A stretch of 64,000 nucleotides of DNA, taken from positions 62,001 through 126,000 of the forward strand of contig JAGGAC010000002.1 of the NCBI GenBank assembly GCA_017889635.1, written 5' to 3'. The notes under the pieces were generated by a model, which did no database searches, was not told where the DNA came from, and saw only the letters and a list, made by a program, of their open reading frames with translations. A program made the position numbers and the translations under genes. Positions within the stretch are counted from its first letter, which is position 1; every line of letters starts with the position of its first letter. Positions 28,776 to 50,414 of this stretch are shown here, piece by piece. The stretch is from Bacillota bacterium (lineage in GTDB: Bacteria; Bacillota; Negativicutes; Sporomusales; CTSoil-080).

Positions 28776-30158
28776 TTAAAGTTTAGCAAGCAGCTTTTTA
28801 TATGGCTCAACCATTTTGGTTATCATTAAGCCTCCATATAGTTTATCTCGAACCGCAGGAACCTTGATAAGCAATCCGAACAAAATATTACGCAGCCTGG
28901 TAGTATAATCCCGCTGCGGGAAGTCGTATACTCCGTTATCTTTATAATACTTGTGATCGGCAGCAAATGGAAACCTGATCTGACCCCATATTTCATCCCG
29001 AAAAATCTTTCTCCCACCAACGCCAAGAAAAGTCGCTGGTTTTATATAGCGCCGCTTCGCAAATTCGATGCTTTGGCGCGCCATTTCCTCTAATAAACCG
29101 TCAATTTCCTTAGATTCCGAGTATTCATCAGTCACAATACCTGCCAAATTGGCTTCTTGCCACTCTGTATAGCCTTCAAATATCTGCCTAAGATTCGGCA
29201 ATTGCCTAAATGGTCCGCTGATCAGAAACCCAATTTGCTTTCCTTTTAGCATCGGCATATGGGTATTGAAAAAAGCCCGGTCAAAAAATGTTTTCCATAA
29301 CGACGATAAATATCGGTCACAAATCGCCCCGGCAAATATAATAATGTCGGCGTTCTTTATCCTACTATTATAAAAATCGATAAAGCCGTCTTTGCCACTA
29401 TACGCGCAGGTATTATCATATCCGCACTTAATACACCCCAGGCAGCCGCCTTTAATATCGACATTGTGGAGATTAAATACTTCCGCCTGCCCGGAAAAAC
29501 GCGCGGTCATGCTCTCGATCATCCGCTTTAAGTTTATCTGATACTCTTCAGCGTCTGTTACGATAACAACCTTTAACCCTCCCGCATCAAATTTACGCTG
29601 CTGTGAACCTGGGACATACTCACTGCCTTGATTTAGAATTGGCGGATATACCTTAGCTGCTGGCAGTCTTCCCTCAATAGCAGCAAAAAATGTTTCTGAA
29701 AACTCAAGCAAACTCCCCCGGGCATCCTCTTTAAAAATATCGTGCATTCCCGCAGAGTATGAACCATAAACCTTCATATCCAAATCATCGCAAATACCAT
29801 GCAGATAATTATGAGCCGTATGATCAAAAAAGTGAATTGAGGTTGTTAATATCGCCGCCGGTTTACCAGCAAAAGCTTCTTGGGCCGCCCGCTCGGTTAT
29901 AAGTTCAATAAACCGCTTATACCCTGAATGCACCAAAAAAACATACAAGGGGAACGCCCACACCACACCGTCAGCCGCTCTGACCTTCTCAGTTATTTCC
30001 TCAAACACCTGATTATCACTTTCAAGTTTCCTAATCCCTTGAGCTACATTACATATTACAAATTCATGCTGTGAATACTTTTTTTTGATGAACGCTACAT
30101 ACTGCATTGTAACACTATTATCGCCCTTCGGACTTCCATTAAGCACAACAATCTTCAT
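28776..30158 (-). CDS. Tandem flavodoxin-like NAD(P)H-dependent FMN reductase fusion
   Basis: 460 aa from ATG 30158 with GGAG 8 nt upstream. Two flavodoxin-like domains in one chain: the first begins KIVVLNGSPKGDNS and contains WAFPLYVF (FMN loops); the second starts near residue 205 (LKVVIVTDAEE) and has a GGCLGCIKCGYDNTCAY cysteine motif, as in iron-sulfur flavoproteins and FMN reductases. The C-terminal 100 residues are basic and unlike either domain. The usual family length is about 190-250 aa, so this is a fusion or duplication. First gene of the TetR operon. Confidence 0.85.
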   Translation of the reverse strand: MKIVVLNGSPKGDNSVTMQYVAFIKKKYSQHEFVICNVAQGIRKLESDNQVFEEITEKVRAADGVVWAFPLYVFLVHSGYKRFIELITERAAQEAFAGKPAAILTTSIHFFDHTAHNYLHGICDDLDMKVYGSYSAGMHDIFKEDARGSLLEFSETFFAAIEGRLPAAKVYPPILNQGSEYVPGSQQRKFDAGGLKVVIVTDAEEYQINLKRMIESMTARFSGQAEVFNLHNVDIKGGCLGCIKCGYDNTCAYSGKDGFIDFYNSRIKNADIIIFAGAICDRYLSSLWKTFFDRAFFNTHMPMLKGKQIGFLISGPFRQLPNLRQIFEGYTEWQEANLAGIVTDEYSESKEIDGLLEEMARQSIEFAKRRYIKPATFLGVGGRKIFRDEIWGQIRFPFAADHKYYKDNGVYDFPQRDYTTRLRNILFGLLIKVPAVRDKLYGGLMITKMVEPYKKLLAKL

Positions 30159-30214
30159 ATTTAAATTCTCCTTTTTGCTTCTAGGTTTAAACCTCAAACG
30201 CAGGCTCCGCTTAC

Positions 30215-31122: not shown

Positions 31123-33255
31123 TTAACAAAACATCTTCTTCTTCAATTTACCATATTCACTTTGTACATAGCCTTCTGCCCACTCCTGATCAGCAATACT
31201 TTCCACTTTGACAGCGCAATATTTATACTCTGGTGTTTTAGAAATAGGATCTAAATGGTCGATTGTCAATTCATTACAAGCACCAATCCACCAATGATAG
31301 GTCATATACACAGTACCTGTATTCACTCGTTCTGACTCAAGCACTCTGGTTATAACTTTGCCCCGGCGCGAAGCTACCCATACAAGCTCTTGATCTTTGA
31401 TCCCCAACTTTTCCGCATCTGCAGAATTTATCTGTACGCAACCCGGTTCATCCGCTAATGTTTGAAGAGCTGCACAGTTTCCGGTCATCGTCCGAACAGA
31501 ATAATGGCCAATCTCTCTTACCGTGCACAATATCAATGGATATTCTTTATCCGGCACTTCCTTAGGAGCGCGGTATTCGGCAGCAAACAGCAAACCTTTG
31601 CCACTTGGCGTATCAAACTTGTTCCCTTCATACAAATACTTTGTACCAGGATGGGTTTCACTTGGACAAGGCCACTGAATGCTGCCTAACTCTTCTAGCC
31701 GCTTATATGTTACACCATAATAAATCGGGCACAATAATCTGAGTTCTTCCCAAATTTCCTCGGCATTATTATATTTCATCGGATAACCCATAGCCGTAGA
31801 CAACAAAGAAATTATCTCCCAATCTGGCTTGACATCGCCTTTAGGTTCGATTGCCTTATTAAATTTCTGAAACCCTCGGTCAGCAGCCGAATAAACACCC
31901 TCATGTTCCCCCCATGAAGTAGCCGGGAAAATAACATCAGCACAGAGCGCCGTCTTATTCATAAATATGTCTTGAACAATCACCAATTCCATACTTTCTA
32001 AAGCTTCTCTAACCCCAGCTGCATCAGGATCACTTTGCACCGGATCTTCGCCGAAAATATAATAAGCTTTTAGTTTACCTTCTTTAACAAGATGCGGCAC
32101 TTCAGTAAGATGGTAACCAGGTTTAGCAGGTAAACTTACCCCCCAGGCTTTTTCGAATTTTTTTCTAATTTCCTCATCCTCAACCGATTGATACCCTGGA
32201 AACACATTTGGCAATGCACCATGGTCGCAGGCTCCCTGTACATTGTTTTGCCCCCGCACCGGGCCTACCCCGACATTGGGCCGACCTAAATTCCCGGTTA
32301 ATAGCGCTAGCGAAGATAAACCCTTAACAACATCAACAGCTTGGCCAAATTGCGTTACTCCCATACCCCAAAGAATAGTAGCACTAGAAGCCTTCGCATA
32401 CATTCGGATTGCTTCCCGAATAGTTTTAGCCGGAATTCCGGTAATACCTTCTACATACTCTGGCGTATATTTTTTTACATTTTTTTTGTATTCGGCAAAG
32501 CCTTCAGTATAATTGGCTACATATTGCTTATTATATAACTCTTCTTCAATCAATACATTTCCAAATGCATTAACCAGTGCCATATTAGAACCGTTCTTAA
32601 GCGGCAGCCACAAATCAGCAATTTTTGCCTGCTCAGTAAACCGGGGATCAGCTACAATGATTTTGGCGCCTTTTTCTTTGGCCTTTATAATTCGCCGGGC
32701 TACAATCGGATGTGATTCTGCTGGATTATAGCCAAAAACAAATACACACTTCGTATCTTCAATTTCCGGAATAGAATTCGACATAGCGCCATTTCCTAAG
32801 GTAGCAGCCAACCCTGATACAGAAGACCCATGGCAGACCCTAGCACAATGATCAATATTATTGGTCCCTATAGTCGCCCTGGCAAATTTCTGCATAATAT
32901 AATTGGCCTCGTTACCAGGCCCCCGCGCCGCTCCGGTACACATAATTGCATCCGGACCATACTTTTCTTTAATTGACTGCAATTTTCTCGCCGCAAAATC
33001 AATTGCTTCCTCCCAAGATACCTCTTCAAATGCATCTGACCTTTTACGCCGTAAAAGCGGCTTAGTTAAGCGTGCTGTTAATCTTTTAGTATTCTTTAAA
33101 AAATCCCATCCGTAATAGCCTTTTAGACATAACTCACTTTCATTAGTACGTCCATTGCCAGGTTCAGCACCAATTACCTCGCCATTTTCTACCGTAAGAT
33201 AAATCTGACAGCCGCTACCACAATAAGGACATATCGTTAGCACTTTCTTTGCCAT
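31123..33255 (-). CDS. fdhF: Formate dehydrogenase catalytic subunit of HDCR (Cys type)
   Basis: 710 aa from ATG 33255, with GGGGG 7 nt upstream; the longer frame starts inside that site. [4Fe-4S] ligands are C9, C12, C16 and C43. The molybdenum/tungsten ligand position, in ARVCHGSSVSGL, is Cys141 (TGC), where E. coli FdhF has selenocysteine. Size and motifs match FdhF (715 aa). It interconverts CO2 and formate. It is the last gene of the hycB-hydA2-hycB-fdhF unit, the composition of hydrogen-dependent CO2 reductase. The gene ends directly against the ribU gene. Confidence 0.95.
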   Translation of the reverse strand: MAKKVLTICPYCGSGCQIYLTVENGEVIGAEPGNGRTNESELCLKGYYGWDFLKNTKRLTARLTKPLLRRKRSDAFEEVSWEEAIDFAARKLQSIKEKYGPDAIMCTGAARGPGNEANYIMQKFARATIGTNNIDHCARVCHGSSVSGLAATLGNGAMSNSIPEIEDTKCVFVFGYNPAESHPIVARRIIKAKEKGAKIIVADPRFTEQAKIADLWLPLKNGSNMALVNAFGNVLIEEELYNKQYVANYTEGFAEYKKNVKKYTPEYVEGITGIPAKTIREAIRMYAKASSATILWGMGVTQFGQAVDVVKGLSSLALLTGNLGRPNVGVGPVRGQNNVQGACDHGALPNVFPGYQSVEDEEIRKKFEKAWGVSLPAKPGYHLTEVPHLVKEGKLKAYYIFGEDPVQSDPDAAGVREALESMELVIVQDIFMNKTALCADVIFPATSWGEHEGVYSAADRGFQKFNKAIEPKGDVKPDWEIISLLSTAMGYPMKYNNAEEIWEELRLLCPIYYGVTYKRLEELGSIQWPCPSETHPGTKYLYEGNKFDTPSGKGLLFAAEYRAPKEVPDKEYPLILCTVREIGHYSVRTMTGNCAALQTLADEPGCVQINSADAEKLGIKDQELVWVASRRGKVITRVLESERVNTGTVYMTYHWWIGACNELTIDHLDPISKTPEYKYCAVKVESIADQEWAEGYVQSEYGKLKKKMFC

Positions 33256-33297
33256 TTTTATTCCCCCTACCTGCTTCATGTCCGCACTATCAAATTC

Positions 33298-33792
33298 TTA
33301 CCCTAAAGCAGCCCGTATCCGTTTATTTTTTATTTCCTCAATCAAGTCATAACCATGAATCTCATTAATAGCCTTAGTCGGACATACTTTCACACAAGCC
33401 GGACTACCATCACTAGTTTTACATAAATCACATTTTATTACTTTAACCGTCTTAGCGTCGTCGTTGTCGGCGCATAACTCTATAGCCCCATAAGGGCATG
33501 CCATAACACACTCCTTGCAACCAATGCATACCCCTTCAACTACTTGCACTGAATCGCCGCTTTGAACAAGAGCCGCTTTAGTACACGCCTTAACACACGG
33601 AGCATTTTCACAATGCCGGCATTGAATCGGCGTAGTTACCCTTGCGGTTTTAACAACCTTTAATCTTGCTACAAAACTCTCTGCCGTAAGGCTAGAGAGC
33701 GCCCCATCTTTACTGTGCGCTAACGCGCAAGCAATTTCACAAGTCCGGCATCCAATACACCGTCCTGGATCTGCTACTACAAAGTCATTCAT
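33298..33792 (-). CDS. hycB: HycB-type four-cluster ferredoxin subunit of HDCR
   Basis: 164 aa from ATG 33792; alignment to HydN/HycB N-termini (MNxFxxAD..CIGCRTCE) supports this start over the GTG at 33801. Four [4Fe-4S] motifs: CIGCRTCEIAC, CRHCENAPCVKAC, CIGCKECVMACP and the CDLC...CVKVCP set. It passes electrons between the formate dehydrogenase and the hydrogenase subunit. It lies between hydA2 and fdhF, 42 nt before fdhF. Confidence 0.93.
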   Translation of the reverse strand: MNDFVVADPGRCIGCRTCEIACALAHSKDGALSSLTAESFVARLKVVKTARVTTPIQCRHCENAPCVKACTKAALVQSGDSVQVVEGVCIGCKECVMACPYGAIELCADNDDAKTVKVIKCDLCKTSDGSPACVKVCPTKAINEIHGYDLIEEIKNKRIRAALG

Positions 33793-33909
33793 ACTCCTCA
33801 CCCCACGCGTATGGTTTTCTTTCCTTATACATTAATTTGTGCCGCAGTTATTATCCAATAGCGGTCAAACGACAATATCCACCTAACATCCGTTTATCCC
33901 TCTATGAAC

Positions 33910-35292
33910 TTATACGGATTTCTTCGGCTTATAGTGAGTATGCAGCAACTTATGAGCTTGATGACCGAGCGGTTCGCCTAAAAATCTCTGATAAATATCT
34001 TGTATTTCCGGATTTTCATGCGATTTGCGAATATATTGCTCTTTATCATGTTCGTAAATACTGCATCCCCGCCTATCATATGCCTTAATCGAATCATCCT
34101 TTAGCAGCATTTTGGGCTGACCGCCGCCACTAATACAACCAGCTGGACAAGTCATAACCTCCATAAAATGAAAATCAGCTTCGCCTTGCTTTAGATTTTC
34201 CAAAATTGGTACAACATTTTTCAAGCCTGCTACCACAACAGTTTTAAGCTTCAATTCACCAGTATCTAACGTAAGTCTCTTAATACTTTGCTCCCCTCTG
34301 GCTGCAGTTACGTCTACATCACTAAGTTGTTTACCTGTAAGCATTTCATAGGCAGTACGAATTGCCGCTTCCGTTACCCCGCCAGTTATGCCAAAAATAC
34401 TGCCGGCTCCGGAGTATACGCCTAACGGCTTATCAAAAGTTTCTTCCGGCAAGCTACTAAAATCAATCATTGCTTCTTTAATCAAATAAGCTAGTTCCCG
34501 AGTTGTCAGTACTGCATCTACGTCTTGATAGCCGCTGGCTTTCATCTCCCGCCGTTCAGCCTCAAATTTCTTACAAGTACAAGGCATAATCGCCACACTA
34601 TATACTCTTTCAGGCTCTACACCATCAACGCTTGCCCCATAAGTTTTAAACATGCTGCCAGCCATTTGCTGAGGTGATTTACAGCTTGATAAATTATCGA
34701 TAAACTCGGGATAATGTGTTTCCACAAACTTTACCCAAGCCGGACAGCACGATGTAAACATCGGCAACAAACCATGGTTTCTCACTCGGCTTACCAGTTC
34801 ACTTGCTTCTTCCATAATTGTTAAATCTGCAGCAAAATTTGTGTCATAAACCCGGTTAAAACCAATCCGCCTAAGTGCCGCCGCCATTTTCCCTGGTACA
34901 AGACTGCCAAGCGGCAATCCAAACTCTTCGGCAAGAGCCACTCTGACAGCTGGAGCGCACTGCACCATCATAAATTTGGTTTTACTCTTAAGCACATCCC
35001 TAACTTTTAGCAAATCGCCAATACTATGAGCTGCAAAAAGCGGCTCCGTTATAAATTCCGGCAAATGCCGAACACTAAGCCTTTTTTGCCGCGAAACATT
35101 ATGCTTTTCAAACACTGAATCATAGGCACTACATACCTGAATACATTGCCCGCACATAACACACTTAGCCTGATTAATAATTTGCGTGCCGCCCTGCTCA
35201 CCTTCAATAGCATTGACAGGGCATACAGCAGCACATTGACGGCATCCGGTACAAAGGTCCGGATCTATTTTTATTCCATCATAAGATTTCAC
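33910..35292 (-). CDS. hydA2: [FeFe]-hydrogenase HydA2 subunit of HDCR
   Basis: 460 aa from GTG 35292 with GGGGG 7 nt upstream. Two N-terminal ferredoxin motifs (C14-C24 and C44-C54 region), then the H-cluster domain with L1 TSCCPAW (180-186), L2 MPCTCKKFE (236-244) and L3 TCPAGCISGGGQP (381-393). L3 has CPAGC where CPGGC is usual. It oxidises or makes H2. Context (two hycB genes, fdhF) identifies an HDCR complex rather than a bifurcating hydrogenase. Confidence 0.94.
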   Translation of the reverse strand: MKSYDGIKIDPDLCTGCRQCAAVCPVNAIEGEQGGTQIINQAKCVMCGQCIQVCSAYDSVFEKHNVSRQKRLSVRHLPEFITEPLFAAHSIGDLLKVRDVLKSKTKFMMVQCAPAVRVALAEEFGLPLGSLVPGKMAAALRRIGFNRVYDTNFAADLTIMEEASELVSRVRNHGLLPMFTSCCPAWVKFVETHYPEFIDNLSSCKSPQQMAGSMFKTYGASVDGVEPERVYSVAIMPCTCKKFEAERREMKASGYQDVDAVLTTRELAYLIKEAMIDFSSLPEETFDKPLGVYSGAGSIFGITGGVTEAAIRTAYEMLTGKQLSDVDVTAARGEQSIKRLTLDTGELKLKTVVVAGLKNVVPILENLKQGEADFHFMEVMTCPAGCISGGGQPKMLLKDDSIKAYDRRGCSIYEHDKEQYIRKSHENPEIQDIYQRFLGEPLGHQAHKLLHTHYKPKKSV

Positions 35293-35309
35293 TCGATTTC
35301 CCCCGCCCA

Positions 35310-35831
35310 CTATATATACTTTTCTTTAACTTCAGCAAGTCGTTTAGCAGCCGCTATGCGGCGCTCACTCTGGTCTCTACCAATATCCGCAACATACTTT
35401 AATGCATTATGCGGACACGCTTCAACACACGCCGGTCCTTGCGACCGTTCGCTGCACAAGTCACATTTACTGGCAACAACGGTATTATTTACTGTAATAA
35501 GCTCTATAGCACCAAATGGACAAACTAAAATACAGCTCTTACAGCCAATACAGTTGGTTTCATCAATCACAATCCGGTTACCCTGCTTTTTTATTGCAGA
35601 AACCGGACAACTCCTTAGACACAAGGCATCCTCACAGTTACGGCACTGAACTGGAACACTCACCTCAGGAGTTTTCACAAGATACAAGCGTGACATAATT
35701 GGAACATCCATATTTCCAACTGTTTTAATCTCTTTCTTACTATGTGCTACAGCACAGGCTACTTCACAAGAACGACAGCCAACACATTTTTTTGCATCGG
35801 CTGTCACAAATGAATTTAGATGACTATGCAC
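35310..35831 (-). CDS. hycB: HycB3-like four-cluster ferredoxin subunit of HDCR
   Basis: 173 aa from GTG 35831, which has GGGGG 8 nt upstream; ATGs at 35861 and 35846 are possible but have no ribosome site. Motifs CVGCRSCEVAC, CRNCEDALCLRSCP, CIGCKSCILVCP and CDLC...CVEACP give four [4Fe-4S] clusters. A C-terminal helix (about 150-173) rich in Lys, Arg and Ala extends past the last cluster; in the filamentous HDCR of other acetogens such a helix takes part in assembly. First gene of the HDCR operon. Confidence 0.9.
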   Translation of the reverse strand: MHSHLNSFVTADAKKCVGCRSCEVACAVAHSKKEIKTVGNMDVPIMSRLYLVKTPEVSVPVQCRNCEDALCLRSCPVSAIKKQGNRIVIDETNCIGCKSCILVCPFGAIELITVNNTVVASKCDLCSERSQGPACVEACPHNALKYVADIGRDQSERRIAAAKRLAEVKEKYI

Positions 35832-35990
35832 TTCTAAATCCCCCATTATTATACTTAACATGTTTTAAAACCAATTTGTTTCATTCTACTTAACATTAAA
35901 TTACGAGACTAATTGACTCTACTGTCCTCAGCACTTACAATTATATCAAATCGCTATCCATACTAATAATACTAATAATATTTGGATTCA

Positions 35991-36028: not shown

Positions 36029-36949
36029 ATGATAAACATGCGTGAACTAGAATACTTTCTTACTATTGCCCAAGAAGGTAATATCACTACAGCCGCCAAA
36101 ACTTTACATATGGCCCAGCCTCCGCTTAGCCGCCAAATGAAACTGTTAGAAGAAACCTTGGGTACCAAACTTTTTGAGCGCGGCCACCGCAAAATTCAGC
36201 TTACCGAAGCCGGCCGCGTACTTAGAAATCGGGGAGAACAGTTACTTAAATTAATGGATAATACAATAAAAGAAATTAATGAAATCGAAACAGGCACGCA
36301 CGGTACTCTATCGCTTGGTACAGCCACTACTTCCGGAGTAACTATTCTGCCAAAAGTCGCTCGTATCTTCCGCAATCAATTTCCGGATTTAAAGTTTGAA
36401 CTGTGGGAAGGAGAATCCATACGAATCATTGAGTTATTAAATGCCGGTTTAATCGAGATAGGGTTAATACGCTTTTATTTTGATACCGATACTTATGAAT
36501 CAATTCAACTGCCAAACGAACCAATGGTAGCTGCAATTAACAAGAATACCGATGATTATATTGACGACAGCCAATCTACAATTAAACTTCGTGATCTAGC
36601 AGACAAACCGCTAATGATTCACCGCAAATATGAAGCCCTTCTCACTGAATATTGTCAGCAAAATGGTTTTAATCCTTATTTTCTTTGCAAAAGCGACGAC
36701 ATCATGCCAATTTTAGCTTGGGCTGATGCAGGCGTAGGCATAGCCATTGTACCGCAAGCAGCAATTGGTCTCATCCCAAGTACTTCAACAGTTTTCAAAA
36801 CAATAATCGATCCCTGTATTGAAACTTCATCAGCCATTATCTGGATGCGTAGCCGCCGTCTCTCAACCGCAGCCCGCCAATTTTTAACTTTGTTCACAAC
36901 AATAAATAACGCTACTGAGTCACGCTTCAAATATCAATCTTCTCCCTAA
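36029..36949 (+). CDS. LysR-family regulator divergent from the HDCR operon
   Basis: 306 aa with AGGAGG before ATG 36029. N-terminal HTH (FLTIAQEGNITTAAKTLHMAQPPLSRQMKLLEE) is typical of the CatM/CynR branch; its C-terminal effector domain ends near residue 295. It is divergent from hycB-hydA2-hycB-fdhF and convergent with the glycyl radical enzyme operon. Control of the HDCR genes is the simplest reading; the inducer is unknown. Confidence 0.9.
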   Translation: MINMRELEYFLTIAQEGNITTAAKTLHMAQPPLSRQMKLLEETLGTKLFERGHRKIQLTEAGRVLRNRGEQLLKLMDNTIKEINEIETGTHGTLSLGTATTSGVTILPKVARIFRNQFPDLKFELWEGESIRIIELLNAGLIEIGLIRFYFDTDTYESIQLPNEPMVAAINKNTDDYIDDSQSTIKLRDLADKPLMIHRKYEALLTEYCQQNGFNPYFLCKSDDIMPILAWADAGVGIAIVPQAAIGLIPSTSTVFKTIIDPCIETSSAIIWMRSRRLSTAARQFLTLFTTINNATESRFKYQSSP

Positions 36950-37046: not shown

Positions 37047-37967
37047 CTACCCCCCAAGCTGGGTGTTTAGTCCGTGCGCTTCAAAAAGCGCCTTGATTCT
37101 TTCCTGCCGCTCTGGCGGAATTGGCTCCACATTCAGCTTATATTCCATCCCAAGCTGCGCATACTTGACCTTTCCAAACTCATGCACAGCCATAATATCA
37201 ACTCGTTCTACTGATTTTAACGAACCCAAAAGTTCGGCAATGCCGTTAAGGGTTTCTTCCGAATCAGTATATCCGGGAATAACAGGCACCCTGATTATCA
37301 GGGGTTTACCAATTGCGTCCAAACGTTTTAGGTTTTGAAGAATAGGTTCATTGGATACACCGGTATTTCTCTGGTGCGCCGCTAGCTCAATACCCTTAAC
37401 ATCAAACAACAATAGGTCGGCTTCCTCAAGCGCTTTAATGCCTTCCGGCGACGTTACAAAGCCGCAGGTATCTATCGCCGTATGAATATAATTTTCTTTA
37501 CACCTTTTGATAAGCTCTAAAACAAACTCAGGATAACAAGTTGCTTCGCCACCGCCAATAGTTACCCCGCCACCGGAAGAACGGTAAAACTGCTCATCCT
37601 TTTTAATCACGGCGAAGAGTTCATCAACAGTGTAGTACTCACCAAAACGATCTAAAGCACCTGTATAGCATACATCGATACATTTGAAGCAATTCGTGCA
37701 TAACTGTCGGTCAATATCTAGCCTGACATTGCCCGCATCTGTTTCAAGCTTAATGGCACCTACAGGACATACTGACACGCAATTCCCGCAGCCCGTGCAC
37801 TTTGCAGCGCTTACCTTAAGTTCGGGATGAAATTTCTGTCCCTCGGGATTACAGCACCAGATGCATTTTAACGGGCAGCCTTTTAAAAAAACTGTAGTTC
37901 TTATGCCATAGCCATCGACAAATGAACCGTGAATTATATGAAATATCGGCGCTCTTACTTCGTCCAT
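37047..37967 (-). CDS. Glycyl radical enzyme activating enzyme (radical SAM)
   Basis: 306 aa with GGAG before ATG. Radical SAM motif GCPLKCIWCCNPEG (C-x3-C-x2-C, about residues 30-37), followed by two ferredoxin-like motifs CTGCGNCVSVCP and CTNCFKCIDVCY, then GGGEATCYPE. This is the long activase type with an auxiliary ferredoxin insert. It should install a glycyl radical on the enzyme at 37989-40436, just upstream on the same strand. All catalytic residues look intact, although the partner lacks the acceptor glycine. Confidence 0.95.
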   Translation of the reverse strand: MDEVRAPIFHIIHGSFVDGYGIRTTVFLKGCPLKCIWCCNPEGQKFHPELKVSAAKCTGCGNCVSVCPVGAIKLETDAGNVRLDIDRQLCTNCFKCIDVCYTGALDRFGEYYTVDELFAVIKKDEQFYRSSGGGVTIGGGEATCYPEFVLELIKRCKENYIHTAIDTCGFVTSPEGIKALEEADLLLFDVKGIELAAHQRNTGVSNEPILQNLKRLDAIGKPLIIRVPVIPGYTDSEETLNGIAELLGSLKSVERVDIMAVHEFGKVKYAQLGMEYKLNVEPIPPERQERIKALFEAHGLNTQLGG

Positions 37968-37988: not shown

Positions 37989-40436
37989 TTATACTTCCTC
38001 GAACTGCATTCTGGCAATAATATCATTCTGAAGTTCAGGACTTAGTTCGACAAAGTAAGCACTATAGGTCGCCACCCGAACCAGTAGATCCTTATACTGC
38101 TCAGGATGTTTTTGGGCTTCTTTCAGCGTATCGGTGCTCACAATGTTGAATTGGATTAAAAATCCGCCGGTTTCACAGTACGTACGGATAAGCGATGCAA
38201 ATTTCCGAAGTTTCTGGCCATCTTTTAGCGCGTCAGGACTAAACCGCATATTCAGAACCGAACCGTTGGTTATTTTTGTATGATCTAATTTTGCTACCGA
38301 CATCATGGTCGCAGTCGGACCAGCTACGTTTCTTCCCTGATGTGGCGATATCCCGCCTTCAGCAATTGGCTGACCGGCTTTTCTTCCATCCGGCAGTGCT
38401 CCGACAACAAAGCCCAGCGGTATATTCGCGGTTACTGTACCAGCGGCACAGTTAGATACCGATCCGGCAAAACCTTTCACTTTGCCCACTTCTTTGCTGG
38501 CCATGGAAATTACGTCATTAACAATTGCATCGACATATTCGTTATCATTGCCGAATTTAGGCGCTGACGACAAAATATGGAGGACTTCTTCTTCGCCTTC
38601 AAAGTTTTTAGCCAGAGCATCCAGAACTCGCGCCATAGTAAGTTTCTTATCTTCAAATACTGCTTTTTTGATCGCCGCCAGCGAATCGCCAACATTAGGC
38701 GTTCCGGCCAACGATACCGCGTAAGTAGAGTACGGAGTTCCCCCATTACATGCATCTCGGCCATTCTTAATGCAGTCATAATAGAGGCTGGATTGAAATG
38801 GTATTGGAGCAAATTCAGCAAAAAGCTGTTTATCGACGTTTCTGAACATTAGGGCTACAGGCATTAACGTTTCTACTTGTTTTTGGAATGCCGCCCATAA
38901 TTCTTCATATGTTTTGAAATTGCGCGCATCACCAGTTTGGGGACCTACTTGTTCGCCAATGATCCGTGAAACACCATTATTTAGTGCCAGTTCCAACAAT
39001 AGCGGCATATTGACCATTCCTCCAGGAATGTCCAAAGAGTGTCCGGCTACCGTCGGGCTGTTGCAGCCGGTTATGCCATAGCAACGTGCCAGGTCGATAG
39101 GTTTCCCGTCTTTCAGTAGCTGCTGAATAGTCGTCTCATCACTTAAGAATTTTACTTTTCCACTTAGAGCTTTAGCAACTTCACAAGCTTTCATTACAAA
39201 AGCATCAGGAGTTTTCTTATGGATTCGAACGATAATATCTTCCGAGTTTAAGGCAACTTCCTTCTCAGCTTCCAGGAAAAGATATGATAGTTCGTTGACT
39301 GCGTCTTTTCCGTCTGCTGTCAGGCCGCCAAGAACAATGTTCGCTCCTAACGTAAAACCGGCGAAGAAACTGGCCATTGGAGTAGGATAAGGTATTACCA
39401 AGCCATTGGTTTTTATATAAAAAAGTTGGATTAGTTCACGGGCTAAATCAGGAGTAATAGTTCCTGCTTCTACATCCTTTTTGTATAACGGATACAGGTA
39501 CTGATCCGCCCGCACGAAACCGTTGCCAGGTCCTGGAGCTTCGATTATTAGCACCAGATAAGTTATCCACATCGACTGTAGTGCTTCATAGAAAGTGCGC
39601 GCCGGATTAGCCGGAACCCTTTTACAGGTCTCAGCAATAAGTTCCAGTTCAGCTTTTCTTGTCGCATTAGTTTCTTTTGCAGCCATGTCTTTAGCAAGTT
39701 TAGCGTATCTTTCAGCAAACGCCGCCGCCGCTTCGAGTGTAATTTTCACGGCGCTAAGATATTGATATTTTTCAAACTCACTGACGTCGGCAAGATTGAG
39801 TTTAGCAATTTCTTCGTCAACTTCTTCTTTAATACCGTTTAAACCTTTATTGATTATAATTTCATAATCAGCGCTGGAGTGCCCATAGTATTGGTTATTG
39901 CCGCAAAAAGCAGCTCCGCCCTGAACTACATTATTGAGTTTCAAGAGATTTTCTGGTATCCTTGCAGTCCACTTGTCAATAAGTGATTTTCCTTTCCAGT
40001 AAGGAAGAAACTCTTGCATTTTTTCTTGCGCTTCTTTTGGTATCGGGGCAAATCTGTCAACGTTTCGCGTTGACAGAAGTTCCATTTCTTCCAAATACCA
40101 ACCGGAGGTTAGTTCTGGCGTCAGCAGACCGCCACGTTGTTTGCTTGAACCACGGCCTACAATTAGTTCGTCGTTAGCGATGCCAATAGTCATTTCTTTT
40201 AAAATCTTAGCCAAAGCCTTGGCTCTTCTGATTGCTTCCGGCTGCCCTTCGGTTTCTTTGTAGGACTCGGTCATCAGATAGCCTCTCTCGACGCATATCT
40301 CAGGAGTTGTGAGCATTTTTTCACGTAAATTTTTAATTCGTTCTTTTCCAATACTTTGCACTTTGTTTTTCTCTCTCCCTTTTCCTCTTAATTTACTTAA
40401 ACCTTTTTGAAACTTATTTGAAAGATTTAGGCACAT
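37989..40436 (-). CDS. Glycyl radical enzyme family protein lacking the radical glycine
   Basis: 815 aa, full length and intact. N-terminal PFL-like domain; active-site cysteine Cys458 in GITGCNSPTVAG, without the Glu two residues on that marks CutC-, glycerol dehydratase- and HPAD-type eliminases; C-terminal glycyl-radical domain from about 690. The radical loop reads RVATYSAYFVEL: Thr790 (codon ACC, 38067-38069) where RVxGYS is invariant. A GGC-to-ACC change needs two substitutions. The activase gene follows 21 nt downstream; a sensor and an MFS carrier lie upstream. The substrate is not predictable. ATG 40436 has GGAG 12 nt upstream; a GTG at 40358 is an alternative start. Confidence 0.9.
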   Translation of the reverse strand: MCLNLSNKFQKGLSKLRGKGREKNKVQSIGKERIKNLREKMLTTPEICVERGYLMTESYKETEGQPEAIRRAKALAKILKEMTIGIANDELIVGRGSSKQRGGLLTPELTSGWYLEEMELLSTRNVDRFAPIPKEAQEKMQEFLPYWKGKSLIDKWTARIPENLLKLNNVVQGGAAFCGNNQYYGHSSADYEIIINKGLNGIKEEVDEEIAKLNLADVSEFEKYQYLSAVKITLEAAAAFAERYAKLAKDMAAKETNATRKAELELIAETCKRVPANPARTFYEALQSMWITYLVLIIEAPGPGNGFVRADQYLYPLYKKDVEAGTITPDLARELIQLFYIKTNGLVIPYPTPMASFFAGFTLGANIVLGGLTADGKDAVNELSYLFLEAEKEVALNSEDIIVRIHKKTPDAFVMKACEVAKALSGKVKFLSDETTIQQLLKDGKPIDLARCYGITGCNSPTVAGHSLDIPGGMVNMPLLLELALNNGVSRIIGEQVGPQTGDARNFKTYEELWAAFQKQVETLMPVALMFRNVDKQLFAEFAPIPFQSSLYYDCIKNGRDACNGGTPYSTYAVSLAGTPNVGDSLAAIKKAVFEDKKLTMARVLDALAKNFEGEEEVLHILSSAPKFGNDNEYVDAIVNDVISMASKEVGKVKGFAGSVSNCAAGTVTANIPLGFVVGALPDGRKAGQPIAEGGISPHQGRNVAGPTATMMSVAKLDHTKITNGSVLNMRFSPDALKDGQKLRKFASLIRTYCETGGFLIQFNIVSTDTLKEAQKHPEQYKDLLVRVATYSAYFVELSPELQNDIIARMQFEEV

Positions 40437-40571: not shown

Positions 40572-41405
40572 TTATATTGCTTCTGCGATTCTTTCAACCT
40601 CGTTAGCTGTAGAAGCCAGTGCTTGCATAGTTGCCCCCATTTCTGCTGTTGCCGCAGCTTGCCTTTCACTAAGTTCTGAGGTGTTTTGAATTATTTTTAC
40701 TACCCCAGTAGTCTCTTTATGAATATCTTGAAGAATCTTTTTGATTTCACTAACCGATTGTGCACTATTAACCGCCATTTTGCGAATCTCGTCTGCCACA
40801 ACAGCAAAACCACGGCCATGCTCGCCAGCTCGTGCGGCTTCAATGGCGGCATTCAAACCAAGCAAATTCGAATTCGAAGCAACATCGCTGACAAACCGTA
40901 AAATATCATCCGTTTTATTAATTTGAGCTAATACACCTTCACCGCCAATCTTAACTTTGCTTAAATCTTCAGCCAATCGGGCGGCAGTAACTCCTAATTC
41001 TTCAGTTGTTGCTGCAACTTCCTCAGTTGTAGCGGCTATTGTTTGTGCCGTTGTATGAAGCGTATCATAAACATCCAAACTCACTGCCACACTGAGAACG
41101 CCACTAATATTACCAGCATCATCAAATATCGGAGTATTCGTAGTTTTCCATTTAAAGCCAAAAATTTCCTTAGGAACAATAATCGTAAGTTTTCTTCGCT
41201 CTTTAATGCAATTAAAAGTCAATGCATCAGAAGGAAGCCTGTCACCAACTTTAAATGCTGGTATTTGCGGGTTTTTCAAATGAAAATCTGCCATGTGATG
41301 AGCAAGTACATAACCATCTCTGTCTATTACAAGAACGCTGCAATCAACCGGAGATGATTCCTTAATTAGATCAGCGGAAGCGACAAGAGCCTCTAATTTA
41401 GTCAT
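40572..41405 (-). CDS. Soluble methyl-accepting chemotaxis-like sensor protein
   Basis: 277 aa from ATG 41405 with GGGGG 8 nt upstream. The N-terminal sensor domain (about 1-125; [42 protein letters not shown]) is PAS/Cache-like and has no membrane helix. The C-terminal half is an MCP signalling coiled-coil with the highly conserved hairpin tip [32 protein letters not shown] in pieces such as [17 protein letters not shown]. It is much shorter than normal chemoreceptors and cytoplasmic. Its place between an MFS carrier and the glycyl radical enzyme suggests sensing of the pathway substrate. Confidence 0.85.
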
Positions 41406-41470
41406 TTTAACTACCCCCACTTTTTTATCATTGCTACATCAAACCTTAACCCGCATCAAAAAAGCGGAAT

Positions 41471-41567: not shown

Positions 41568-42821
41568 CTATTTCCTGGCAAAAATCTTTGGTGGATTCAT
41601 AGCCAATGCGAAAAAGCAACCAACAACTGCAACCGCGGTTACAATCACCATTGATACTGAATAAAGGCCGGTAGTATGCAAAGCATATGAGCCTGCAAAA
41701 ACACCTGCCGTACCACCAAAAACGCCGATACCCTGCGCCAAACCGCCTAATTTACCGGTAACATGTTCCGGATAATTACGAGCGATGAAGGCGATGGAAG
41801 GCGGAATACACAGTGCCTGGAAGAATCCGGCCAAAATGAGGTTGACCAGCATAATTGATTCACTGCTGGTAACAAAAGCGAATTTCATGCCGGCACAGAA
41901 GATGGCAAAACCAATGAAACCAATGAAGACAACTGGTTTGGAACGGCCACCAAAGAGTTTTTCCACAATGAAACCACTCAATACCGCCCCAACCATAAAT
42001 GCGAACTGTAACGCTGTCATAAACTGACCGGCAGCCACTGGACCTTTACCAAGACCTACCGGTGAATCAATCGCGATATAGCCGGGAATAAGATCATTGA
42101 ACCCTTGCATTACCCAGGATAGCAAAACAACACACATTATTGCGCCCCAGGTTGCAGGCAGCTTCAACGCCGCCGCAAAGTCACTCTGACCACCAGCCGC
42201 TGTTCCAGCTTCTTCAGCCGATGGCATAGCAGGCGGCTTAGGTCCAAAAACAATTACCAGCGTCATTACCAAGGCAATTACAGTAATAACAGTCAGCCAA
42301 GCCATTGTAACAGCCCAATCACCAGTAGACTCAAACACAGCCGGTGCAACCATAAAGCCAATGGCAATCCCAAGTCCCATTGACATCCCCTGGATACCGG
42401 TAACAATCCCACGTTCATTTGCCGGAAACCATTGCGCCGCAACCCTGGCAGTAGACGCCATAATCGGACCGGTACCAATACCCTCGATAATCCGAAGAAC
42501 GCTCAGACCACCAAGGGTAGTCCCAAAAAACGGCATTGCCAGTTCACCGATCGCAATAAGTATAAGGCAAACAACCCAAACCCTAAACGGGCCGAAACGG
42601 TCAAGTAGCGCTCCACCAATAAGACAAAAGATCGCAACAAACAGGTTATACATTCCCATGGTAGCGCCAGTCGCTTCACCCAGACTGATACCAAGTGCTT
42701 TAGCTATCGGCCCCATCAATGGAGCAGGCGAAATCAGAGCTACAGCAGTAGTTGCTGTTGTAATGCAAAGTGTAATCAAAACAAACCAACGAAAGCGCGG
42801 AAATAGTGCAGATGTACTCAT
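41568..42821 (-). CDS. MFS transporter
   Basis: 417 aa with AGGAG before ATG. Twelve hydrophobic segments; the MFS loop 2-3 motif reads GGALLDRFGPFRVW (about 68-81). A polar loop with PSAEEAGTAAGGQSD divides the two halves. No signal for substrate specificity; relatives include organic acid/formate-oxalate type carriers. It precedes the sensor, glycyl radical enzyme and activase on the same strand and is presumably their uptake system. Confidence 0.9.
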   Translation of the reverse strand: MSTSALFPRFRWFVLITLCITTATTAVALISPAPLMGPIAKALGISLGEATGATMGMYNLFVAIFCLIGGALLDRFGPFRVWVVCLILIAIGELAMPFFGTTLGGLSVLRIIEGIGTGPIMASTARVAAQWFPANERGIVTGIQGMSMGLGIAIGFMVAPAVFESTGDWAVTMAWLTVITVIALVMTLVIVFGPKPPAMPSAEEAGTAAGGQSDFAAALKLPATWGAIMCVVLLSWVMQGFNDLIPGYIAIDSPVGLGKGPVAAGQFMTALQFAFMVGAVLSGFIVEKLFGGRSKPVVFIGFIGFAIFCAGMKFAFVTSSESIMLVNLILAGFFQALCIPPSIAFIARNYPEHVTGKLGGLAQGIGVFGGTAGVFAGSYALHTTGLYSVSMVIVTAVAVVGCFFALAMNPPKIFARK

Positions 42822-43248: not shown

Positions 43249-44574
43249 CTATTTGAAGAAGAAATCAAGCTGTGCCCGGAAGAAATTGTCTTTTTTTCCA
43301 CTAGTAACAGCAATACTACTATCTCTAGTAGAAGTACCAGCATCAATATACTTCTGCATATCATACCAAACTGTCAATAGCGTGCTGTTCCACGGAGCAT
43401 AATGCATGCCAACTCTAACGCCTTTCAGGTTGGCATAGTATCTATCATCGTTACTTATGATTGAGTTACTTTCAAGGTTGTGATAGGCAACATAAAAATC
43501 ATAAGTTTTAGCCACAAACGGGATAGCGTTTTTATACGTAAGTTGGGCGAAGTAGCCTTTATTAGCTTCATCATAATTAGATTTCACATAAGCTGCTTTG
43601 AAGGCCAGATCTTTACTTAATTTGGTGTCAAAACCGCCCTCAAAGTAATTATAGTAATCATCATTACCTATAGCCACAGGCGCTACACCTAGGTTAGTTT
43701 GATTTCTTTGATAAGAAGCCTTAATATTAGTATTCGGAGTAACAGCAAAAACAACATCAGCTGCCTGGTAACCCATACTACCAAATGTCCCCTGAGGAAC
43801 ATACATGGTATCCTGACCAGCTACGAATGTGGTTTTTACCTTATCACCGAAAGATACCAAAGCACCGCTGACTTCCAGGTAATCACCATGAGTCAGTCCA
43901 TAAGCCGGAATGTATGTGAAGCGGCCAAGTTTAGCACTCATCCCGTTAAACTTTAAATCTGCGTAAGCCTGAAGACCAAAATGCTGCCAGTCGGCTTTCC
44001 CATTTGGAGAATCAGTTGAAGTATTGTTATTCCATTGCGTAGAATTCTGTAAGAATTGTCTGTGCAGTTCACTCTGCGTAACTACTTGAAAATTGTCGTT
44101 GACTTTAAAATAGGTATTAAGTACGAATACCATACTTTTATCATCGACTTTTTCTACGTCGTAATGATCATAACGGTTGCCAAAAATGCCAAAATAACTA
44201 AAATTGCTAGTATTATTTTTTAGCGCTGCTACGTTGTTTTCCAGAGTTGTCACCCTGGTGCCGAGACTCTGCAGTTCGGCGGAAAATTCACGTGCCAATT
44301 TTCCGATCAGTGCCTTGTTTTCAGCATCGGCTTTATCGACTTTAGTCATAGCGTTGGCTACAATTTGAGCCATTTCATAACGAGTCAGAGTTTTTTCGCC
44401 TCTATAAGTACCATCGCCCATACCATCGATGATACCGGCTTTAGCAAGCTTATTTACCGCCCCATAGGCCCAATGATTTGCCGGAACATCGCTAAATGGA
44501 CTGACAGCCGCTGCGGCCACACTAGCGAAACAGAATATACACACCATAATCATAGCGATTAGGCTTTTCTTCAT
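43249..44574 (-). CDS. ompM1: OmpM-type outer-membrane porin with SLH domain
   Basis: 441 aa from ATG 44574 with GAGGTGG 6 nt upstream. Signal peptide (1-22, ending AAAA); SLH domain (about 25-75: FSDVPANHWAYGAVNKLAKAGII, TLTRYEMAQIVANAM, in parts) that binds polyamine-modified peptidoglycan; coiled coil (about 85-125); then a beta-barrel rich in alternating aromatic residues, ending in Phe-Phe-Phe-Lys. This layout is the OmpM of Negativicutes, tethering the outer membrane to the wall. It has a long leader conserved with the second porin. Confidence 0.93.
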   Translation of the reverse strand: MKKSLIAMIMVCIFCFASVAAAAVSPFSDVPANHWAYGAVNKLAKAGIIDGMGDGTYRGEKTLTRYEMAQIVANAMTKVDKADAENKALIGKLAREFSAELQSLGTRVTTLENNVAALKNNTSNFSYFGIFGNRYDHYDVEKVDDKSMVFVLNTYFKVNDNFQVVTQSELHRQFLQNSTQWNNNTSTDSPNGKADWQHFGLQAYADLKFNGMSAKLGRFTYIPAYGLTHGDYLEVSGALVSFGDKVKTTFVAGQDTMYVPQGTFGSMGYQAADVVFAVTPNTNIKASYQRNQTNLGVAPVAIGNDDYYNYFEGGFDTKLSKDLAFKAAYVKSNYDEANKGYFAQLTYKNAIPFVAKTYDFYVAYHNLESNSIISNDDRYYANLKGVRVGMHYAPWNSTLLTVWYDMQKYIDAGTSTRDSSIAVTSGKKDNFFRAQLDFFFK

Positions 44575-44673
44575 ATTTAACCACCTCATTCATTTTTTTA
44601 AGGAATTCCGTGGTTCATATATTGCTAGCACTAATCTGCGAATCCAATTACTCCCAAGCTGAACACCAGCTGG

Positions 44674-44784
44674 TTTGACCCGGTTGTTCCGGTTTTCACG
44701 AAGTTCAGTGAACTATTCCACAGTTTCTTTCACTTTTCCGTTAAACCATTCTCGCCGAATCGGTTATGTCACCTCCCTTTCCCT
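44674..44784 (-). promoter_or_regulatory. Conserved structured 5' leader, ompM copy 1
   Basis: About 110 nt, closely similar to 46497-46609 upstream of ompM2. Shared elements (minus strand) include GGGAGGTG, AAAGTGAAAGAAACT, a TTCACTG...CGTGAA hairpin and a small CCGG-type hairpin before GTCAAA. It ends 100 nt before the start codon. Not a riboswitch class that I recognise. A shared promoter element CTTATAACTTTGC lies upstream at 44850-44862. Confidence 0.65.
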
Positions 44785-45262
44785 TAAAGGTCTTTTAGTG
44801 CACACAACCCTCCTTTAACTAATGCGTTATTTATTATAAAATAGGTACCGCAAAGTTATAAGTTAAAGTATTATCGGCTTTCATTAACTATATGTAAGCA
44901 GCTATCCAAGAATTCATATAATATATCGATAATCAAAGTCGCCAATACTATAGCTTTTAATTGATATATATCAACCAACTAAAGAAATGCTTAACTATTT
45001 AAGCACTATTTAGGTATTATTCAAATTTTTGCTATAAATCTGAATATTAATCTTAATTAAATATTATCCTATAAATTATTCGAAGTCAATTCCGCATTAA
45101 TACCAATTAAGAATTAGTGAAATAACTATTATAAAAAGAACTTCTTTAGCTCCATTTATTTAAAGCGAGCTGTCCGTTATACGCTCGCTTTTAACTTGTG
45201 CTCTTTAATTGACAACCTGTCCATTTCAAGTACAAATACTAACTATCATACTTAATCTAAAA

Positions 45263-45297
45263 AACGAAAACTCCCCTTAAAAGAGGGAGTTTTCGTT
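45263..45297 (-). terminator. Terminator of the SLH-less porin gene
   Basis: AACGAAAACTCCC (45263-45275) pairs with GGGAGTTTTCGTT (45285-45297), 100 nt after the stop codon. The remaining 44863-45262 is AT-rich with no supported gene. Confidence 0.7.
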
Positions 45298-45396
45298 AGA
45301 CAGCAGGAGAGTCTTATCCTACTGAAGGAATTTGTTCAACCTTAGCTGAGCAAACTCCAGATTTTTTTACCGTCTGCTTCTTCGTTACCTCACAGA

Positions 45397-46398
45397 CTAT
45401 TTGAAAAAGAAGTCCAGTTGAGCCCGGTAGAAATTCTGCGAAGCGCCGGTGCTGATATATTTGGCATTATCATACCATAAAGTCAGCAGCGAGCTATTCC
45501 ACGGAGCATAATGTACACCATATTTGATACCTTTACGATCCGCCAAGAGCGGAATATCATTGCTCATAATTGAATTGGCTTCCAAATTGTGATAAGTCAC
45601 AAACACATCATAGGTCTTAGCAACAAAAGGTATTGCATTTTTGTAACTAAGTTTAGCATAGTAGCCTTTGTTATCTGCACTAACATCTGACTTTACATAT
45701 GCTGCTTCAAAACCTAAGTCTTGAGTTAATTTAGTGTCAAAACCGCCTTCAAAATAATTAACGTCACTAGTGTCGGAATTTTGCATATAGACTGCCCGCA
45801 CATTAGTATTTTGTGCAACCGGACAAACTACGTCAATTGCCTTATAGTCGGTTTTTGCCAATTCCATATCAGGAATGTATAAGCTATTGCGGCCTGCAAC
45901 AAGCGTTGTTTTAACATTATTGCCAAAAGAAACAAGACCACCAGTGACTTGTTGATAATCACCATGTACAAGACCGTAAGCCGGCAAATAACTGAACCGG
46001 CCAACTTTGGCGCTCCAGCCCTCGAAAGTGCCTTCTCCATAAAACTGCCTGCCCACCTGATTCCAAGCCCGATTACCTGCTACAGACTCGTCATATGTGT
46101 GATGAAATTCACTTTGAGTTACAACTTTAAACTGATCGCTAAATTTATAGGATGCGTTAAAAATAAAAACAGCACTTTTATCGGTAACTCCACTATCAGA
46201 CTTGTGGTCATACCGGCTACCGAAGATACCAAGATAACTGAACTTGTTCGAATCATTATTATCTGCGGCTACTGGAGTTTCTTCCTGCTGTGATACTTTA
46301 TTAGCAGAATCATCTGCAGCTGTATTTGTGGCCGCAGCAGCCACACTTGCAAAACATAATATTCCTGCCATAGTCATAGCGATTAGGCTTTTCTTCAT
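45397..46398 (-). CDS. ompM2: OmpM-like porin paralogue lacking the SLH domain
   Basis: 333 aa with GAGGTGG before ATG. The signal peptide is nearly identical to that of ompM1 (MKKSLIAM...CFASVAAAA). After it only a short polar linker with Asp, Asn and Ser remains, then the beta-barrel begins with FSYLGIFGSRYDH, homologous to FSYFGIFGNRYDH of ompM1 and co-linear to the end. The SLH and coiled-coil segments (about 110 residues) are absent, so the protein should form a pore without tethering to peptidoglycan. Confidence 0.9.
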   Translation of the reverse strand: MKKSLIAMTMAGILCFASVAAAATNTAADDSANKVSQQEETPVAADNNDSNKFSYLGIFGSRYDHKSDSGVTDKSAVFIFNASYKFSDQFKVVTQSEFHHTYDESVAGNRAWNQVGRQFYGEGTFEGWSAKVGRFSYLPAYGLVHGDYQQVTGGLVSFGNNVKTTLVAGRNSLYIPDMELAKTDYKAIDVVCPVAQNTNVRAVYMQNSDTSDVNYFEGGFDTKLTQDLGFEAAYVKSDVSADNKGYYAKLSYKNAIPFVAKTYDVFVTYHNLEANSIMSNDIPLLADRKGIKYGVHYAPWNSSLLTLWYDNAKYISTGASQNFYRAQLDFFFK

Positions 46399-47089: not shown

Positions 47090-48259
47090 TTACACTCTTT
47101 CCAGGACGACAGAGACACCAGCACCGCCGCCAGCACAGAAGCTGATAAGACCAGTGCTAAGGTTACGCCTTTTCAATTCGTAAACTGTTTTAGCAACCAA
47201 AACAGCACCCGAACCTGCTAATGGATGACCATGAGCAATAGCGCCGCCGTTTACATTGAACTTGTCCTCAGGAATGTTAAGATCACGAACACAAGCAATT
47301 GACTGAGAAGCAAACGCTTCGTTGATTTCTACAAGGTCAATATCCTTCATGGTCATGCCGGTTTTCTTGAACAATATATTTGTCGAAGCAACCGGTCCAA
47401 CACCCATGATTTTAGGATCAACACCAGCCGTAGCATAAGCTTTGAATTTAGCCAAAATTTCAAGTCCCATCGATTTGGCCAATTCTTTTTCCATAACAAC
47501 CATAGCGCCGCCGCCGTCACTCATTGGCGAACTATTGCCGGCAGTCAGAACGCCGTCCTTTTTAAACGACGGACGCAACTTAGCAAGACTTTCCATGCTA
47601 GTTTCAGGCCGCAAAGCTTCATCCTTGGTAAACATTGAAGTTTTGCCTTTACCCAAATTCACTTCAACCGGAACAATCTGCTCATTAAAATAACCTGCAT
47701 CCCAGGCAGCAGCTAATTTTTGATGGCTGCGAACCGCAAATTTGTCACATTCCTCACGTGTTATGCCATACTTTTCTGCTATATTTTCAGCCGTAATACC
47801 CATTGGCAGATTGCCAAGTTCATCAGGAGCCGTATGAATTACGGACCACTGCGGCGCAGCCACCTGATAGCCGACAGTCGCTTTATCCATAACATAAGGC
47901 CGACGTGAGTCGCTTTCTACACCACCAGCAACAAGAACATCATGATAGCCAGCTTCAATAAGAATTGCCGCATAAGCAAGCGCGTTAAGTGATGCCGGGC
48001 ACTGACGATCAAGGGTAATACCGGGAACAGTGATCGGCAAACCAGCTGCCAGAGCAACCATACGGCCCATGTTGTTAATTTCATGGTTCATTAGATTAGC
48101 GTAGATTACATCTTCAATAATTGACGGATCAATCTTTGCCCTTTTAACAGCTTCTTTTACAGACAACGCGCCCAATTCATGAGCCGGAACCGACGCTAAA
48201 GCGCCACGGCACTTACCTACCGGTGTACGTACTGCGGAAACAATTACTGCTTCTCTCAT
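47090..48259 (-). CDS. Acetyl-CoA acetyltransferase (thiolase)
   Basis: 389 aa from ATG 48259 with AGGAGGAG upstream. Catalytic residues: Cys87 in LDRQCPASLNALA, His in GGAIAHGHPLAGSG (about 342) and Cys in SFCAGGGAG (about 372). It cleaves or forms acetoacetyl-CoA. Downstream of the BKACE gene by 44 nt, so acetoacetate from BKACE, once activated, would be split to acetyl-CoA. The same enzyme can supply the first step for the butyrate genes at 54-60 kb, which lack their own thiolase. Confidence 0.93.
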   Translation of the reverse strand: MREAVIVSAVRTPVGKCRGALASVPAHELGALSVKEAVKRAKIDPSIIEDVIYANLMNHEINNMGRMVALAAGLPITVPGITLDRQCPASLNALAYAAILIEAGYHDVLVAGGVESDSRRPYVMDKATVGYQVAAPQWSVIHTAPDELGNLPMGITAENIAEKYGITREECDKFAVRSHQKLAAAWDAGYFNEQIVPVEVNLGKGKTSMFTKDEALRPETSMESLAKLRPSFKKDGVLTAGNSSPMSDGGGAMVVMEKELAKSMGLEILAKFKAYATAGVDPKIMGVGPVASTNILFKKTGMTMKDIDLVEINEAFASQSIACVRDLNIPEDKFNVNGGAIAHGHPLAGSGAVLVAKTVYELKRRNLSTGLISFCAGGGAGVSVVLERV

Positions 48260-48303
48260 TAAATATACTCCTCCTATTTGCTTGTTCATTAGTAAATAAT
48301 TTT

Positions 48304-49128: not shown

Positions 49129-49152
49129 GTTCTCACTCCATCATTAAAATAA

Positions 49153-50118: not shown

Positions 50119-50251
50119 AAAAGCTCCTTTCAGCATCCGAATACCGTGTACCCAATTAAGCGGTGAACGGGTTACTTCCCCCCATCCATCGCATTAAGGC
50201 CATATCCGGACTCCTGTTACCATCCCAAGCACTGGAATAAAGTTACTAACG

Positions 50252-50297: not shown

Positions 50298-50414
50298 TCA
50301 TTAACTATCTGCAATAATTTTCACAAACTAATTCCAAATATCTAACTTCTCTTTACCGCTACGCGGCTAAGCAAATACCTAAACAAATATACAAAATGTC
50401 TATCTGCCAACGAT

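Follow-up and report, generated by a model that had tools for sequence, protein, structure and literature searches.

A predicted threonyl radical enzyme encoded near butyrate-forming genes in a Bacillota bacterium

The window, i.e. the whole 64,000-nucleotide stretch of DNA analyzed here, belongs to contig C122 of a Bacillota genome (G000) and carries the gene of a full-length homologue of glycyl radical enzymes (GREs) in which threonine occupies the place of the radical glycine. The gene, its activase and the sensor, transport and catabolic genes around them are arranged as follows; percentages are identities to counterparts in the related genomes G001, G002 and G363.

37047-37967, minus strand: activase of the threonyl radical enzyme (TRE), a radical SAM protein with a CX3CX2C motif (CPLKCIWC) and a ferredoxin-type insert
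37989-40436, minus strand: predicted TRE, 815 codons, PFL-like barrel and Gly_radical domain
38067-38069, minus strand: ACC codon of Thr790, the radical position in RVATYS
39063-39065, minus strand: codon of Cys458, the catalytic (thiyl) cysteine in TGCNSPT (GITGCNSPT)
40572-41420, minus strand: sensor with an MCP signalling domain, lacking a full periplasmic domain (80% to a syntenic copy in G001:C84)
41568-42821, minus strand: MFS transporter (relatives beside the TRE in G002, 67%, and beside the activase in G001, 66%)
43249-44589, minus strand: outer-membrane-type porin with an SLH domain
45397-46398, minus strand: second porin-like protein, SLH domain not evident, by eye a paralogue of the preceding one
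47090-48289, minus strand: thiolase (94% G001:C84, 73% G363 TRE cluster)
48304-49128, minus strand: beta-keto acid cleavage enzyme (BKACE), Val14 type (71% G363 cluster; lost in G001:C84)
49153-50136, minus strand: 3-hydroxyacid dehydrogenase, 3HCDH / carnitine-dehydrogenase type (94% G001, 60% G363)
50415-51221, minus strand: SDR oxidoreductase (95% G001, 69% G363)
51834-52805, plus strand: LysR-type regulator (84% G001:C84, 49% G363)
54105-55181 and 55305-56618, minus strand: two butyrate-kinase-like proteins
56428-57348, minus strand: phosphate butyryltransferase-like protein (Ptb), named from sequence
57408-60347, minus strand: 3-hydroxybutyryl-CoA dehydrogenase (HBD), crotonase and acyl-CoA dehydrogenase
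62495-63982, minus strand: protein of the HpaB / 4-hydroxybutyryl-CoA-dehydratase superfamily (below the family cut-off; 76% to a copy in the G363 cluster)

The reading frame at 37989-40436 runs without a break across 815 codons; it includes DLLVRVATYSAYFVELS, and the C-terminus of its product is RVATYSAYFVEL. The initial annotation had described an intact gene with an ACC codon for Thr790 that lies two base changes from a glycine codon, an active-site Cys458 and an apparently complete radical SAM activase gene alongside, all of which our analysis confirmed. Pfam matches to the PFL-like (628 bits) and Gly_radical (109 bits) domains cover the full length of the protein, and the closest folds to its AF2 model (pLDDT 87, pTM 0.89) in Foldseek were 1r8w, 5i2g, 8iof and 6vxc (TM 0.92-0.93, 32-37% identity). 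Residues 1-29 have a pLDDT <50 and the alignment of homologues begins after the first ~27 residues; judging from model and alignment, the first 27-29 residues are probably untranslated or disordered, and the true start may lie downstream. The canonical GRE fingerprint has glycine in RVxG[FWY], where the window protein reads RVATYS.

Searching 60 related genomes and a GTDB contig collection, we found relatives down to 25% identity. Every relative with at least 44% identity to the window protein has threonine at the radical site and all those at ~40% or less have glycine, the opposite of the all-glycine close homologues that the initial annotation had named as grounds for refutation. The threonine proteins number 12 and come from seven genomes: the window protein itself, three copies in G001 (75, 66 and 56%), one each in G002 (58%) and G363 (68%) and, more distantly, three in G453 (51, 49 and 45%), one in G454 (48%) and two in G455 (47 and 46%); no second threonine copy was found in the window genome. 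Threonine occupies the radical site in 12/12 of these proteins and in 0/74 of the aligned glycine-type relatives. Its codons (ACC in four, ACA in five, ACG in two and ACT in one) span all four ACN forms, indicating that threonine was held while the third base drifted. In a tree of 91 rows the 12 proteins formed one clade (SH-aLRT 100) and the threonine/glycine label changed once, compared with a mean of 11.5 changes upon shuffling; threonine at this position thus defines a clade, a point that the initial annotation had suggested checking. Eighteen alignment columns separate threonine from glycine proteins, the sharpest being T790, N703 (Asp in 74/74 glycine proteins), E399 (Pro in 74/74), D469 (Trp/Tyr) and, at 694, a clade-specific insertion of one residue. 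Comparison of the window and G001 TREs gave a dN of 0.17 and a dS of about 2.8, the latter near saturation; the gene is under strong purifying selection with a dN/dS far below 1, which argues against gene decay. A DNA pattern for the threonine loop was confined to the window genome, G001 and G002 in a set of 28 genomes from the order, and to the window genome and G363 in a set of 398 from the phylum; the distribution of these enzymes is rare and patchy.

The activases of the threonine proteins likewise fall into a matching clade of their own (SH-aLRT 100), which is marked by changes to V17 (His in 60/79 of the others), G138 in a GGGE motif (Ser in 72/79), A142 and T143. By these sequence comparisons, the activases co-vary with the threonine enzymes. 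The window genome has one TRE and one activase, so that the pairing of two TREs with a single activase, which is usual but not defining in TREs, is not found there; the corresponding numbers in G001 are three TREs and two intact activases. The TREs on contigs C84 and C35 of G001 have no intact activase next to them: the former lies 36 kb from an activase on the same contig, an arrangement that suggests relocation or loss after duplication. TREs can therefore persist after their local activase has been lost or moved apart from them, in keeping with a single activase that serves several TREs. Two further observations concern these loci: directly downstream of the intact TRE on C35 (66%) lies a 63-residue C-terminal activase remnant (G001:C35:30339-30527; L095 / L174), and at G001:C84:47345-47515 (L171) an MCP-type sensor and a TRE activase are ~160 bp apart where the window has its TRE.

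Threonyl radical chemistry is already published. Fu et al. (2024, JACS, PMC11528403) reported 71 TREs, together with alanyl and seryl radical enzymes, and placed TREs nearest the GRE eliminases. EPR of FpTRE1 and FpTRE2 from Flavonifractor plautii revealed a stable carbon radical, assigned to the alpha carbon of threonine, whose formation needed activase and SAM; the radical was still present in a Cys-to-Ser variant, a T770G variant gave a glycyl doublet, and FpTRE1 showed indirect evidence of thiyl exchange in addition to the threonyl radical (PMC11528403). The new chemistry proposed in the initial annotation was thus right in direction and not in newness, Fu et al. having reported it in 2024, and the starting point that the canonical radical has no place in this protein carries less weight than it was given, since threonine itself holds the radical in relatives. 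What the window adds is a further member, its gene context and the specificity residues of the TRE/activase pair.

FpTRE1 and FpTRE2 stand outside our 91-row tree, and the window clade is tied to them by its residue signature. Threonine in the RVxG[FWY] fingerprint, the catalytic cysteine, a Cys-Thr spacing of 332-333 residues throughout the clade (333 in FpTRE1, C437/T770; PMC11528403), a neighbouring CX3CX2C activase with extra Fe-S clusters, membership of a single clade and a patchy distribution are common to both, whereas the window differs in having one TRE per activase and in its linkage to a defined butyrate-forming gene set. Because its sequence, its activase and its clade all agree with this class, we filed the window protein as a TRE, and it very probably carries a threonyl radical. 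With the GRE eliminases (1r8w, 5i2g, 6vxc, 8iof and CutC, which include glycerol and 1,2-propanediol dehydratases) the TREs share the full-length fold and the cysteine loop but have threonine for glycine, N703, E399, D469 and the insertion at 694. They also lack the glutamate at Cys+2 of the GCVE loop, which is present in 60/80 glycine proteins and in 0/12 threonine proteins (Ser460, GCNS, in the window). The best match of the AF2 model to glycerol and propanediol dehydratases agrees with the published eliminase placement, whereas the absence of this glutamate from 12/12 TREs argues that proton handling differs from that of those dehydratases and speaks against a plain glutamate-assisted dehydration.

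Other explanations of Thr790 have to be weighed against this assignment. That the assembly is a draft of 152 contigs could point to a sequencing or assembly error at a glycine codon, the chance of which is negligible: two base changes would be needed, the same residue occurs in 11 proteins of six other genomes and in the 71 published TREs, and we ruled an error out on the conservation of threonine across the clade with four codons. Alternatively, Thr790 could be dead and the radical restored in trans by a small glycyl protein, in the way in which GrcA restores oxygen-damaged PFL. The spare part that the initial annotation had raised on the model of YfiD did not materialize. GrcA-type models do match the C-terminal domain of the window TRE, but in the window genome, which is 99% complete, the GrcA model matched only the C-termini of full-length radical enzymes, and PF01228 and TIGR04365 revealed no stand-alone GrcA/YfiD protein and nothing near the GrcA cut-off; the GrcA model was positive in control genomes, E. 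coli among them. Like GrcA/YfiD, the window protein has a C-terminal Gly_radical domain, but this domain is intact, sits in a full-length enzyme and bears threonine, and the FpTRE work shows that TREs carry their radical without a helper, which makes a spare part extremely improbable. Three weak Gly_radical matches were discarded as candidates: L005 is NrdD-like with an RRITGY end, L006 is nitroreductase-like and L007 holds no plausible protein and two stops.

A non-catalytic role, in which the protein would be a scaffold or sensor and the activase would serve another enzyme, could draw on the TREs of G001 C84 and C35 that persist without an intact adjacent activase. One activase for two TREs is, however, a known arrangement (PMC11528403), FpTRE1 did give a threonyl radical, and the invariant Cys458 and Thr790, the purifying selection and the co-evolved activases leave this possibility, also voiced in the initial annotation, decidedly unlikely. 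A subtler alternative retains catalysis: the activase would turn threonine into a glycyl radical by cleaving the bond between C-alpha and C-beta and releasing acetaldehyde. Side-chain alkoxyl radicals are known to undergo beta-scission and, by our own reasoning, the stereochemistry of activation puts the side chain of L-threonine where the hydrogen is taken, given that activation of glycine removes the pro-S hydrogen (PMC11528403). Yet FpTRE1 and FpTRE2 gave no glycyl doublet but a distinct carbon-centred signal, and it was T770G that produced the glycyl signal, so we consider this route very unlikely. We thus retain the reading of the window protein as a genuine TRE.

The pathway genes of the window (47090-63982) share the strand of the TRE and lie upstream of it, and the genes of the window as a whole likely span several transcription units. 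The 3HCDH-type dehydrogenase had its best models among 3-hydroxyacyl-CoA and carnitine dehydrogenases, and the SDR matched only broad SDR sub-families, all but one below cut-offs. Distant relatives of the LysR regulator stand divergent from the TREs at G001:C35 and C58. Elsewhere in the window, 31123-35861 encodes a formate-dehydrogenase-like molybdoprotein, HydN-like ferredoxins and an [FeFe] hydrogenase; these probably form a formate-hydrogen module, which a LysR gene (36029-36949, plus strand) separates from the adjacent TRE operon. Two near-identical hotdog thioesterase-like frames in tandem (52930-53421 and 53564-54031) adjoin the butyrate-kinase paralogues, both being local duplications, and at 28776-30197 two flavodoxin-like / NADPH-FMN-reductase domains are apparently fused in one protein. 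As to the organism, the paralogous porin-like pair (43249-46398), one with an SLH domain, points to a diderm member of the Bacillota and GerA at 25285-26760 points to spore formation.

To examine this neighbourhood beyond the window, we compared the loci of the related genomes. In G001, of the same family, the SDR, 3HCDH-type dehydrogenase, thiolase, LysR regulator, MCP sensor (80-95%, listed above) and activase (83%) keep the window gene order on a TRE-bearing contig, from which the BKACE is missing. In G363, of another family, TRE (68%) and activase (62%) lie in a same-strand run of ~25 kb with the thiolase, BKACE, 3HCDH-type dehydrogenase, SDR and HpaB-type protein (60-76%) and butyrate genes; the run also holds OYE, molybdopterin and other oxidoreductases. 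Adjoining this TRE (G363:C12; L109:11091-15046) are a 1028-residue molybdopterin oxidoreductase, which we take to resemble pyrogallol-phloroglucinol transhydroxylase, and a ferredoxin subunit with a Cna-B-like tail. G002 repeats the order porin, MFS transporter, TRE and activase. A conserved frame of ~565 residues is convergent to the TRE activase at two loci, from two genomes of the window's family (L097:4207-5907 and L096:3777-5462; G001:C58 and G002:C107); it had no Pfam match above cut-off, with collagenase and flagellin matches below. The other f42 genomes searched have neither a TRE nor a close BKACE. A triacetate-like BKACE of at least 65% identity was found in 5/396 phylum genomes, including both TRE carriers of the sample, an overlap that is suggestive only, as the threshold was set post hoc, one carrier was the source of the query and kinship was ignored. 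The distant TREs (G453-G455) lie outside such a gene cluster, so the pathway link may hold for this subgroup only.

The gene set invites comparison with the phloroglucinol cluster of Clostridium scatologenes, which comprises an SDR reductase (PGR), a cyclase-type hydrolase (DPGC), the 3HCDH-type TfD, the BKACE-type TAL and an MFS transporter (PMC10470551). Both share an SDR, a 3HCDH-type dehydrogenase, a BKACE, an MFS transporter and a regulator and lead toward acetoacetate/acetyl-CoA; in contrast, the window lacks the cyclase DPGC, its BKACE has Val14 in place of tryptophan, and a TRE with its activase is present. No cyclase-family ring hydrolase (PF04199) was found on the window contig, and matches occur on other contigs. 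The residue-14 position is Trp16 in CsTAL and glutamate in the lysine enzyme (PMC10470551), valine in the BKACEs of the window and the G363 cluster, and tryptophan or phenylalanine in triacetate-type copies. A role of the window BKACE as the KCE of lysine fermentation was rejected, since this model, although the best, stayed below its cut-off and Val14 stands against the glutamate of the lysine enzyme. A separate triplet of 3HCDH, cyclase and BKACE occurs in G363, G453, G454 and G455, and the window genome has other pairs of BKACE and 3HCDH on C149 (Phe type) and C82. The window cluster thus resembles a paralogous pathway that handles another acid. F. plautii, the host of the experimentally studied TREs, degrades flavonoids and phloroglucinol, and organisms with a TRE seem to break down (poly)phenols or comparable compounds; both readings are correlational.

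We propose the following scheme. By homology to the relatives in which this has been shown, the activase would cleave SAM reductively and the resulting 5'-deoxyadenosyl radical would abstract hydrogen from the alpha carbon of Thr790. The threonyl radical, as the resting form, would in turn abstract hydrogen from Cys458 to give a thiyl radical that would start the reaction on the substrate, as in GREs. The TRE would act early in a fermentative catabolic route, with uptake of the substrate by way of the porin and MFS transporter encoded nearby. Its product would pass through the SDR and the 3-hydroxyacid dehydrogenase to a 3-keto acid. Cleavage of this acid by the BKACE, together with acetyl-CoA, would give acetoacetate and an acyl-CoA, and the steps on to butyrate would be those of thiolase, HBD, crotonase, acyl-CoA dehydrogenase and Ptb/Buk. 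We predict, with somewhat better than even confidence, that the TRE works in this linked butyrate-forming pathway by making its substrate. The reaction is perhaps an elimination or dehydration, at rather less than even chances, and a substrate derived from a (poly)phenol or alicyclic ring is put forward only tentatively. More speculative is the reading in which the TRE provides an entry or ring-processing step parallel to phloroglucinol fermentation, replacing the cyclase-type hydrolase and feeding a new 3-hydroxy/3-keto acid to the Val14-type BKACE and on to acetoacetate and butyrate.

The enzyme could also be a genuine TRE whose linkage to the thiolase, BKACE, 3HCDH and SDR genes is coincidental, these genes belonging to another pathway. 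Distant TREs have other neighbours, the TRE is set apart from the pathway genes by the porins in the window and by >20 kb in G001, and the Mo- and flavin-dependent enzymes of the G363 region could be the real partners. Against this, the window, G001 and G363, which have the closest TREs, all possess the same set even though G363 belongs to another family, and neither the TRE nor a close BKACE was present in the other f42 genomes searched; coincidence is thus unlikely, though it keeps appreciable weight. Taken as a whole, the observations are best explained, we believe with good confidence, by a TRE with a proposed role in the linked butyrate-forming pathway.

Before October 2024 the exchange of glycine for threonine would have come as a great surprise; it now belongs to a documented class. 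No common or informative neighbourhood was found for TREs class-wide (PMC11528403), and the conserved pathway neighbourhood described here may be new. The pathway genes shared by the window and two related loci narrow the function of the TRE to a few testable substrates, and the clade-specific residues of enzyme and activase lead to a hypothesis of how the activase accepts an L-amino acid with a side chain. If true, the route parallel to phloroglucinol fermentation would give a TRE its first assigned function, and TREs would provide the radical chemistry for part of the anaerobic degradation of (poly)phenols.
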